From Bacteroidales bacterium (GTDB lineage Bacteria; Bacteroidota; Bacteroidia; Bacteroidales; UBA12170), in assembly GCA_016744655.1 (NCBI GenBank), contig JADGDY010000029.1, forward strand, positions 1-37,084: 37,084 nucleotides of DNA, in the 5' to 3' direction. Numbering within the stretch: the stretch's first letter is position 1; each line of letters begins with the position of its first letter. Below are positions 992-3,066 of this stretch, piece after piece. Under the pieces are notes generated by a model. The model saw only the letters and a program-made list of their open reading frames with translations, did not search any database and had not been told where the DNA came from. Both the position numbers and the translations under genes were made by a program.

Positions 992-2110
992 CTAAAGCTT
1001 CTTCTCGAAAATCCTGTATTTCTTGTAAACAATAGCATCTAGTCTTTCCATTAATGCTCTCATTTTTTTGTTCTCTTCTAAAATGAGATGACTATCCAAT
1101 ACCTTTAAGTTTGCTTTTTTTGCCGATTCAAATAAGCTAACAGCCATAAGAGCATCTATTCCTGAATTTCTAATATTATCCTTTACACAGCCTAATAGAA
1201 GGTTGAGTTGTGAGGCTTTTTTAAAGGAACGTAGAATATGATAAAATCCCAAGGGAAATAATTGCCCATTTGCTTTTCTAAAACCATCGCTAATATCTGG
1301 CATAGCAACCACAAAGGCTACAATCTTTTCATCTTCGTCGGCAACTATTTTTATAAATTCAGGATTAAGTAAAGGAAGGAAACGCTCTGAAAATTCTTTT
1401 GCTTCTCTATCTTTAAGGGGAGCAAAACCATAGATATCTGTATAGGTTTGGTTAATGAGATCGAAAACTGGCTTTACATAGGGTCTAACGTTTTTTGATT
1501 TGTTGAATTCCAAAATTTTAAATCCTCTAGTTTGTACTCGCTCAGCTACTTTCGCGTAAAACTCAGGTATAAGTTGAGGAATATCTAACCTATATTCAAA
1601 AAGGTCCAACTTTTTTTCATAGCCTAATTTTTTAGAGAAATCAATCATATATGGATAGCTACAATTGGTCACCATAACAGTCATTGGATCATCAAAACCT
1701 TCAACTAAATAACCTTGAGGATCTTTATCAGAAAACCCTAAAGGACCCACCACTTTTTCCATCCTATTTTCTTTGGCCCAATCCTCTATGGTTTTTAAAA
1801 GAGCATGATAAACTTCAATATCATCATAGGTTTCTGCAAAACAGAAGCGTGCATTTTTTTCATCATGCCCTTGATTATAGGAATGATTGATAATGCCCAT
1901 AATTCTACCCACCACTTTATTGTTTTTTTCTGCTAAAAGTAGTTTTGTATCACAGTGTTCAAAAGAATGGTTTTTCTTTTTGTCAAATACCTTCCATTCA
2001 TCGGAAATTAAAGGTGGCAACCATTCTTTATGGTTTTTGTGGATTTCAAAGGGCAAGCCGATGAATATCTTTAAATCCTTTTTAGAAACAACTTCTTTGA
2101 TTTTGATCAT
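992..2110 (-). CDS. GNAT-fold acyltransferase-like protein (YghO-like; possible N-acyltransferase in lipid synthesis)
   Basis: This 372-residue protein has an N-terminal GNAT-like half: WLPPLISDEWKVFDKKKN, then KKNHSFEHCDTKLLLAE and VVGRIMGIINHSYN (residues about 30-80), then VVGPLGFSDKDPQGYLVEGF (about 120-140). This matches the pattern I know from the widespread 'acyl-CoA N-acyltransferase' proteins resembling E. coli YghO. I believe, without being able to check, that the bacterial ceramide synthase of Caulobacter belongs to this broad group. No signal peptide or membrane segment is seen. It starts 8 bases after the PAP2 gene ends, so the two are almost certainly cotranscribed. Inference: it may acylate a lipid precursor. 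An ordinary small-molecule acetyltransferase of unknown substrate is the alternative. Confidence 0.6.
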   Translation of the reverse strand: MIKIKEVVSKKDLKIFIGLPFEIHKNHKEWLPPLISDEWKVFDKKKNHSFEHCDTKLLLAEKNNKVVGRIMGIINHSYNQGHDEKNARFCFAETYDDIEVYHALLKTIEDWAKENRMEKVVGPLGFSDKDPQGYLVEGFDDPMTVMVTNCSYPYMIDFSKKLGYEKKLDLFEYRLDIPQLIPEFYAKVAERVQTRGFKILEFNKSKNVRPYVKPVFDLINQTYTDIYGFAPLKDREAKEFSERFLPLLNPEFIKIVADEDEKIVAFVVAMPDISDGFRKANGQLFPLGFYHILRSFKKASQLNLLLGCVKDNIRNSGIDALMAVSLFESAKKANLKVLDSHLILEENKKMRALMERLDAIVYKKYRIFEKKL

Positions 2111-2118
2111 TGAACTCT

Positions 2119-2991
2119 TTAGTTATGATGGTTTGTTGATTCTTGTTGCTTCCAAGTGGGAGCTTGGTATAAAAAATCGGATAAATATAAGATAAAAGGA
2201 GCAATGAGCAAGCCTCCTACAACATCAATGGCATAATGTGCTTTTATATAAACTGTTGATAAAATAAGGAGAATAACAAAAGGCCATGACCAATGAAAAA
2301 ATACACGGATATATTTCCATGATAACATAAGGATGATGATAGAAATACCAACATGAGAACTTGGGAAAGCTCCTGTTGGGTGTTCTGCTGTATCTTGTAT
2401 AAAGATGACTATATCTTTGAATATATAAGCATCAGGAACTTGGTTATCAGGAAAAGCAAAGTAAAACTGCGGCCCAGCGGAGGGAATAATGCAGAATATG
2501 GTATAGAAGATATATAGCGATGCACTTAGCTTAAAAACCAGTTGATTGAAAAGCTCCTTTTTTTGGAATAAAACATATAAACTAAAGAAAAGGATTAATA
2601 GGTAGAAGCTAAAATAACCAAAGTACATCAACTCACTAAATATCTGTTGTGGTAATAGTTGTGAGAATGTGATACTTAGCTGTGAGCCAAAAATATAATC
2701 TTCCCATAGTATTAAATGGGAATCTATGTTTTCCATAAAAAGCTGATTATAGAAATATGTTTCTGAATAGAAATATCCACTCAGAATTAATGGGTAACTA
2801 TTTCTGAGGATGTTAATGATATTGTTATTGCTCTTTTGATTGATATATATCAGTACAAGAATAGTTGGGACTAATATTAAACGAGTCAAAAGGAGAAGGG
2901 GAGAGTAATCGCCCCACTCCATCAATAAAAAAAGAGTGCTCAATAGTAGATATGAGAAAAATAAATAATCGAGTCTTTTAAATGGAATCAC
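2119..2991 (-). CDS. PAP2-superfamily membrane protein, Aur1/Ipt1-like (lipid phosphatase or head-group transferase)
   Basis: This integral membrane protein has about six hydrophobic segments. The PAP2 signature is split between FPSSHVGIS and YIKAHYAIDVVGG, giving the two catalytic histidines and the partner aspartate; SAGPQFYFAFPD precedes them, as in inositolphosphotransferase-type (Aur1/Ipt1) members. The usual KxxxxxxRP box is not clear. I start it at GTG 2991 (MIPFKRLDYLF, 290 residues). The longer frame begins with an ATG at 3051 that lies in the loop of the sucB terminator and upstream of the TATCTTTG promoter at 3010-3017, so that ATG cannot be used from this promoter. It leads a two-gene unit with the acyltransferase-like gene. 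Family-level function is secure; the substrate is not. Confidence 0.72.
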   Translation of the reverse strand: MIPFKRLDYLFFSYLLLSTLFLLMEWGDYSPLLLLTRLILVPTILVLIYINQKSNNNIINILRNSYPLILSGYFYSETYFYNQLFMENIDSHLILWEDYIFGSQLSITFSQLLPQQIFSELMYFGYFSFYLLILFFSLYVLFQKKELFNQLVFKLSASLYIFYTIFCIIPSAGPQFYFAFPDNQVPDAYIFKDIVIFIQDTAEHPTGAFPSSHVGISIIILMLSWKYIRVFFHWSWPFVILLILSTVYIKAHYAIDVVGGLLIAPFILYLSDFLYQAPTWKQQESTNHHN

Positions 2992-3009
2992 ATTTTTGTT
3001 TTTAGCGTG

Positions 3010-3017
3010 CAAAGATA
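3010..3017 (-). promoter_or_regulatory. -7 promoter element for the PAP2-acyltransferase unit
   Basis: Minus-strand TATCTTTG (TAnnTTTG) lies 18 bases upstream of the GTG at 2991 and just downstream of the sucAB terminator, so the unit has its own promoter. Confidence 0.6.
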
Positions 3018-3034
3018 GGATTTTGGAGAAGGCC

Positions 3035-3066
3035 AAAAAAAAAGGCCGCATAAAAATGCAGCCTTT
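3035..3066 (-). terminator. Rho-independent terminator of sucA-sucB
   Basis: Read on the minus strand, AAAGGC-t-GCAT pairs with ATGC-g-GCCTTT around a TTTT loop and runs into a T tract. It begins 20 bases after the sucB stop. Confidence 0.85.

Follow-up and report, generated by a model that had tools for sequence, protein, structure and literature searches.

In the 37,084-nucleotide stretch analysed here (the window; contig JADGDY010000029.1 of a Bacteroidales bacterium of the UBA12170 lineage), two adjacent genes on the minus strand encode a PAP2 membrane protein and a YghO-like acyltransferase. We propose that the pair is a second lipid-finishing module of this genome, in which a long-chain-base-like amine would be N-acylated and given a phospho-head group, a reading that we place a little below an even chance. 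Gene order, homology, fold, motifs, contexts, clades, and co-occurrence were computed. The predicted fold, the motifs, and the gene context support the PAP2 protein as a probable head-group transferase of Aur1-like mechanism. A preliminary description of the locus had coupled an Aur1/Ipt1-like PAP2 gene to an acyltransferase resembling bacterial ceramide synthase. It is partly supported: the observation was right and the PAP2 half is well supported, with the ceramide-synthase half left open.

The conserved gene pair and its products

The locus contains the following features.
992 to 2110, minus strand: YghO-like GNAT-fold acyltransferase of 372 amino acids (aa), clade C (PF00583, 22.6 bits; E. 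coli YghO match, 161 bits; AF2 model, pLDDT 91.8)
2111 to 2118, minus strand: intergenic gap of 8 bases, from the open reading frame (ORF) boundaries
2119 to 2991, minus strand: PAP2_3 membrane protein that is likely a head-group transferase (starting preferably at the GTG, alternatively at the ATG of 3051; PF14378, 60.5 bits)
3010 to 3037, minus strand: promoter-like TTTG-N16-TATCTTTG, read by eye
3041 to 3066, minus strand: terminator-like hairpin of 11 pairs plus a T run, between the pair and the upstream gene, from a sequence scan

A PAP2 gene directly followed by an acyltransferase gene, both of the window type, was found at 27 loci of named genomes, counted in the contigs of the best-scoring 80 of 586 confirmed relatives (the counts for L032 to L111 rest on these 80). 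The same order occurs in G000 (the window's own genome), G009, G016, and G053 of a 60-genome sample of relatives, which was not chosen by adjacency to serine palmitoyltransferase (SPT). Pair genomes number 31 distinct ones under 32 handles, one genome appearing twice; G008 and L035 are one genome, and L040 and G067 are both the isolate Polaribacter porphyrae. The order spans Bacteroidales to Flavobacteriaceae, and the arrangement is more than chance. No lipid gene was recognised in a by-eye reading of the recurrent neighbour families at the pair loci.

The PAP2 protein scores 60.5 bits against PF14378 (PAP2_3; cut-off 27 bits), and the PQFYF and HYAID motifs given in the preliminary description are both present. 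H233, H272, and D276, numbered from the ATG at 3051, are invariant across 46 aligned PAP2 rows and form a His-His-Asp triad (PSSH ... HYxxD); PSSH and GPQ are missing from a single row, the long-branch row of L061. PAP2 lipid phosphatases of the PgpB/LpxE type carry the motifs KX6RP and SRX5HX3D. These motifs occur in 0 of 87 rows of the PAP2 family, on which ground we rejected a lipid phosphatase, and neither is present in the second PF14378 protein over the cut-off in the window genome, which lies on C34. The phosphatase-like PAP2 proteins of the same genome, L014 and L015, both contain SRX5HX3D, and L015 alone contains KX6RP.

In a Foldseek search, the AF2 model of the PAP2 protein (pLDDT 92.5) ranked Aur1-Kei1 first (9ivc; E 3.2e-5, TMq 0.51) and inositol phosphorylceramide (IPC) synthase-ceramide second (9vj4; E 8.5e-5, TMq 0.56). 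These scores are moderate, and the next matches are two bacterial phosphatases, followed by SMSr at rank 5 (E 0.27). The window PAP2 shares with yeast Aur1 and with PI-dihydroceramide synthase of the BT_1522 type the PAP2_3 family, the H-H-D triad, and a predicted fold closest to Aur1/IPC synthase. It is also alike in its H-H-D type to sphingomyelin synthase and SMSr, but scores only 19.2 bits against their family (PAP2_C, PF14360, sphingomyelin/ceramide phosphoethanolamine synthase), below the cut-off of 27 bits. Comparisons with BT_1522, the Caulobacter ceramide synthase bCerS, and BT_0972 were made via NCBIfam models or E. coli YghO. Up to E 1, the window PAP2 matched neither the NCBIfam PI-dihydroceramide synthase model nor any PDB sequence. 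In contrast, the C34 PAP2 has PI-dihydroceramide synthase as its only NCBIfam match (324 bits against a cut-off of 480) and matches Aur1 by sequence at E 1e-16. The two PAP2 proteins are 21% identical, and at E 1e-6 the C34 protein is not among the matches of a profile of the window PAP2 family. The Aur1/Ipt1-like label thus holds for the probable mechanism and not for the type, as the window PAP2 is, by its sequence matches, no Aur1 or PI-dihydroceramide synthase and the C34 PAP2 is of that type.

The acyltransferase scores 22.6 bits against PF00583 (GNAT; cut-off 20.7 bits) and contains the patterns WLPPL..D..K..H..FEH and GRIMGI..H..N on which its earlier assignment was based. It is homologous over its full length to E. 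coli B YghO, with 27% identity over 383 aa and 161 bits (bits or identity are quoted for BLAST against local sets, since these sets are tiny). The E. coli B yghO gene clusters with spt and with genes for an acyl carrier protein, a fatty acyl-AMP ligase, and an epimerase, and YghO is named a possible N-acyltransferase in the available portion of PMC9386255. The AF2 model of the window protein (pLDDT 91.8) is composed of two GNAT-like halves, and both this and the full-length homology are likenesses to the bCerS/Aca proteins (E. coli B YghO, Caulobacter CC_1154). The PDB sequence and NCBIfam searches with the acyltransferase were uninformative, and aminoglycoside acetyltransferase NCBIfam models gave 12.6 bits, where the cut-offs are 140 and 300. 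Among 91 YghO-like proteins placed in a tree, the window acyltransferase falls in a 45-row clade, clade C (support 100/99), of which 31 rows adjoin a PAP2 family gene and 14 stand alone. The trees leave out L095 (both genes) and acyltransferases shorter than 300 aa, such as L087. H24, M71, K254, G307, and H341 are near-universal in clade C and rare outside it.

The two ORFs (992-2110 and 2119-2991/3051) are 8 bases apart on the minus strand, as previously described. From its ATG, the PAP2 ORF covers 2119-3051 (minus strand) and encodes 310 aa, but this ATG falls within the hairpin 3066-3041, and the in-frame GTG at 2991 agrees with the N-termini of the closest relatives. GTG 2991, giving a protein of 290 aa, is therefore the more likely start, and the earlier boundary of 2991 is probably right. 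A single promoter for the pair, also proposed earlier, is plausible, but a sigma-70 scan lists no minus-strand promoter upstream. The TTTG-N16-TATCTTTG at 3037-3010 presumably resembles the Bacteroidota promoter pattern, with a short spacer. We take the same-strand genes upstream to be sucB and sucA, with the hairpin following sucB; the labels sucA/sucB, engB, cysteate synthase, and Kbl are presumptive, from our own reading. Since the terminator-like hairpin separates the pair from the sucB-like gene, the pair is likely a unit of its own.

Sphingolipid genes in the genome and its relatives

The window genome, a metagenome-assembled genome (MAG) of 5.2 Mb and 86.8% completeness, contains both spt and a cerR-like gene, the two genes that the preliminary description had suggested looking for. 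They lie apart from the window pair on C34 (L016, 2128-12394; C34:66000-85500), in a row of genes on a common strand, most of them touching.
Gene 1: phosphatidyltransferase (best NCBIfam model BT1523-type PIP synthase, 309 bits, cut-off 350)
Gene 2: myo-inositol-phosphate synthase (MIPS; Pfam)
Gene 3: PgpA-like
Genes 4 and 5: GtrA-like; large outer-membrane-type (both read from the sequence)
Gene 6: SPT (best PDB match serine palmitoyltransferase, E 2e-139)
Genes 7 and 8: YghO-like acyltransferase; epimerase-family CerR-like protein (PF01370)
Genes 9 and 10: small protein; PAP2

Judged by these assignments, C34 is a complete SPT-acyltransferase-CerR inositol-sphingolipid cluster, and the window pair is therefore an extra set and not the main ceramide route of the genome. 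Inositol genes of this kind were shown for BT_1522 to BT_1526 of B. thetaiotaomicron in the available part of PMC9246714. The window acyltransferase has two paralogues in its own genome, on C205 (35% identity) and C34 (32%). The second alpha-oxoamine synthase of the genome is a cysteate fatty acyltransferase (CFAT; L113:7373-8620; PDB 28eh, E 3e-184), because of which the organism may make sulfonolipids as well as sphingolipids.

Window-type PAP2 proteins were found in 7 of the 60 relatives, the own genome included, and a profile search returned the same 7 plus three weak matches of 30-34 bits. Of the 87 rows in the PAP2 tree, 31 are paired with a window-type acyltransferase and 31 (30 loci, as L061 contributes two rows, one on a very long branch) adjoin other lipid genes. 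Among the latter genes, spt or a cerR-like gene lies within 1.5 kb of 24 PAP2 rows, and 7 further rows adjoin only a YghO-like gene outside clade C. The remaining 25 rows have no such neighbour, and SPT is present in 20 of their genomes. In Algibacter L038, the order is spt-acyltransferase-cerR-PAP2, and this PAP2 lies inside the 12-row subclade of the window protein (support 99/95). In addition, a window-type PAP2 is the last gene of an spt-acyltransferase-cerR cluster in G049 and follows a cerR-like gene in G012. The best reading of the PAP2 family is a head-group transferase on ceramide-like lipids. Further regions of mixed composition were observed. At L061:929-6879, SPT and a YghO-like protein occur together with a CerR-like gene and two PAP2 proteins, of which one has diverged strongly. 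In L136:5287-8779 (G030), SPT is followed by two tandem YghO-like acyltransferases, and no CerR-like gene was detected alongside. A Streptomyces sp. NBC_01001 plasmid (L155:2769-6051) carries an overlapping trio of a class I/II pyridoxal phosphate enzyme, for which SPT is the best match in the local set, a YghO-like protein, and an epimerase; by these matches, it looks like a ceramide backbone operon on an actinomycete plasmid.

SPT was called at an identity of at least 49% to the C34 SPT, with partial matches accepted in G060, G087, and G095; many of the genomes are incomplete MAGs, where absence of SPT or CFAT may be an assembly gap. SPT was found in 20 of the 60 relatives. A YghO-like protein accompanies it in all 20, compared with 24 of the 40 relatives lacking SPT (p 5e-4). 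As a general rule, the step from a YghO-like gene to sphingolipids was rejected, given these 24 genomes and the many in which members of clade C or of the C205 type stand alone. In the SPT-containing genomes G015, G016, and G032 (E 1e-30) and G072 (E 1e-20), no YghO-like protein other than that of clade C was found. In the SPT neighbourhoods of the 20 relatives, a CerR-like gene occurs in 8 (G000, G001, G004, G005, G006, G009, G022, and G049), a short-chain dehydrogenase/reductase (SDR) gene in 4 (G013, G015, G016, and G032), and neither was detected in 8; the pair genomes G072 and G076 provide two more SPT-SDR cases. The best NCBIfam model for the six SDRs is the 3-ketodihydrosphingosine reductase KdsR, at 314-359 bits, short of the cut-off of 400. 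Five of these six genomes contain clade C (G015, G016, G032, G072, and G076), G013 being the exception with an SPT-SDR arrangement and no clade C. The window genome differs from them, as its SPT is coupled to the epimerase-family CerR-like gene (PF01370) instead of an SDR. A reductase-first order exists in B. thetaiotaomicron, where BT_0972 is an SDR-type 3-ketosphinganine reductase (PMC9278070, available text), and both reaction orders are described in the accessible part of PMC10865984. Together with this known order, the occurrence of clade C with a KdsR-like SDR after SPT suggests that clade C may act on reduced bases.

Proposed function and competing readings

We infer both substrates, the head group, and the sequential action of the two proteins. 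In the first step, the clade-C protein would N-acylate a long-chain-base-like lipid, probably one already reduced, such as sphinganine, and either made in the cell or taken up. In the second, the PAP2 protein would transfer a phosphate-bearing head group from a glycerophospholipid to the N-acylated lipid, through a mechanism that uses two histidines and one aspartate, as in Aur1 or sphingomyelin synthase. In the window genome, this two-step module, the second of its kind there, would work beside the C34 inositol-phosphoceramide cluster and not in its stead, and its product would be a second phosphosphingolipid class, perhaps with a phosphoethanolamine or phosphoglycerol head group.

Several observations weigh against this proposal. 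SPT is present in the window genome, yet it was found in just 8 of the 31 pair genomes. Judged by SPT, most pair genomes thus represent the counter-case named in the preliminary description, in which the pair occurs in genomes without any sphingolipid genes (cerR was not searched for genome-wide). Relatives that lack the pair have SPT at least as often (17 of 55; p 0.8), and the pair is therefore not tied to SPT. Clade C occurs in 8 of 20 relatives with SPT and 11 of 40 without (p 0.38), and in G010 and G056 it is present with neither SPT nor CFAT found. No clade-C row of the tree (0 of 45) lies beside spt or cerR, compared with 21 of the 46 other YghO-like rows, a contrast that is overstated, because some spt-linked rows (L132-L136) were fetched for their adjoining SPT; the E. 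coli YghO row was tagged as an SPT cluster by hand from annotation. In the 60-genome sample, which allows the fairer comparison, none of the 19 clade-C genes adjoins SPT, compared with 10 of 48 other YghO-like genes (p 0.05). Furthermore, a window-type PAP2 is missing from 14 of the 19 relatives that have clade C. The solved structures nearest to the acyltransferase model are mainly small-molecule acetyltransferases, and the fold therefore does not decide the substrate. The clade-C signature residues (H24, M71, G307, and H341) argue for a possible other substrate. The likeness to ceramide synthase accordingly stands as YghO homology, but the window protein differs from bCerS/Aca in its separate clade, its clade-specific residues, its absence from the side of spt or cerR, and its frequent presence in genomes lacking SPT.

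These same differences favour a module acting on a non-sphingoid amino lipid, in which clade C would N-acylate some other amine, for example an amino acid, and the PAP2 would have moved to a new acceptor, making the pair an offshoot of sphingolipid enzymes instead of a sphingolipid operon. We consider this rather unlikely. Besides the separate clade and its residues, it draws on the frequency of SPT, which 8 of 31 pair genomes have, compared with 20 of 25 for the neighbour-less PAP2 rows (Fisher p 1e-4, although the rows are not independent). In six same-genus genomes (L118-L123), a clade-C gene without PAP2 lies near glycine-lipid genes of the GlsA/GlsB kind and has a gamma-glutamyltransferase gene as its neighbour. 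Of these six, L118 was tested; there GlsB scores 449 bits (cut-off 300) and GlsA 353 bits (cut-off 260), with the gamma-glutamyltransferase on the opposite side. However, no candidate amine was identified, glycine is already accounted for by GlsB, and clade C as the sole YghO-like protein of the four SPT-containing genomes named above runs counter to this idea.

Improbable, in our view, is a role in sulfonolipid synthesis, with clade C N-acylating capnine or 3-ketocapnine and the PAP2 acting on a different substrate or drawing on a common pool. CFAT is present in the window genome and in 43 of the 60 relatives, and it occurs in 29 of 31 pair genomes compared with 38 of 55 relatives lacking the pair (p 0.013, with rows not independent). 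Polaribacter porphyrae has the pair, no SPT match, and a CFAT after a PF00291 gene, which we take to be possibly a cysteate synthase. PMC11211663, which treats the first three steps, never uses "N-acyl" in its main text. Nevertheless, clade C shows no clear enrichment with CFAT (15 of 19 vs. 28 of 41), a sulfonolipid does not need a phospho-head-group transferase, and in 12 CFAT-containing relatives no YghO-like protein was found at E 1e-30, which led us to reject clade C as a general sulfonolipid N-acyltransferase. A distant YghO-like group (about 24-29% identity, 388-439 aa; L172-L175, L178, and L179) was observed in several Bacteroidota genomes and could fill the N-acyltransferase gap in those relatives. 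GldF/GldG-like genes are shared by five pair loci, of which three come from close Polaribacter relatives, and L084:5881-9363 contains a cerR-like gene, a window-type PAP2, and then gldF and gldG (NCBIfam over cut-off). Sulfonolipids are tied to gliding in parts of the literature.

It is still less probable that organisms lacking SPT salvage foreign long-chain bases, which the pair would convert to phosphoceramides. The pair is kept in genomes with no SPT match, including the isolate Polaribacter porphyrae, and the PAP2 family is elsewhere often tied to ceramide genes, but no uptake gene was recognised beside the pair in neighbour families read by eye. An unrelated lipid phosphatase next to a small-molecule acetyltransferase is barely credible, as the nearest solved folds of the acyltransferase are set against the absence of phosphatase motifs from all 87 PAP2 rows and the conservation of the pair from Bacteroidales to Flavobacteriaceae.

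Phosphoethanolamine-dihydroceramide and the wider PAP2 family

Gut Bacteroidota make phosphosphingolipids that affect their hosts. The lead of greatest interest comes from outside the window, in Bacteroides and Prevotella, where the PAP2 family adjoins a CerR-like gene. In Bacteroides finegoldii (L180:3757-5720), a CerR-like gene and a window-type PAP2 gene are tandem and overlapping, and in Prevotella oral taxon 299 (L181:3699-5711) the two are tandem. The products match the CerR-like protein of the window genome (39-41%) and the window PAP2 family, and the B. finegoldii PAP2 matches no NCBIfam model at E 0.01. By this context, the PAP2 proteins of both these human-associated Bacteroidales are candidate phosphosphingolipid synthases. 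According to the available portion of PMC9246714, B. thetaiotaomicron still makes phosphoethanolamine-dihydroceramide (PE-DHC) without BT_1522, and another enzyme must therefore make it. In the literature titles and abstracts searched, apparently no gene for PE-DHC synthesis other than BT_1522 is named.

A broader idea, which we regard as unlikely, is that the window PAP2 family is a second phosphosphingolipid synthase of Bacteroidota that makes PE-DHC. It would stand in for the Aur1-type enzyme in other spt-acyltransferase-cerR clusters, and in one further branch it would have been captured with the new N-acyltransferase clade to make a phospho-N-acyl lipid without SPT. The YghO-like branch not tied to SPT is a caution against scoring every YghO-like gene as ceramide synthesis in genome surveys, and the PAP2 family offers a concrete candidate for the PE-DHC synthase in a gut commensal.

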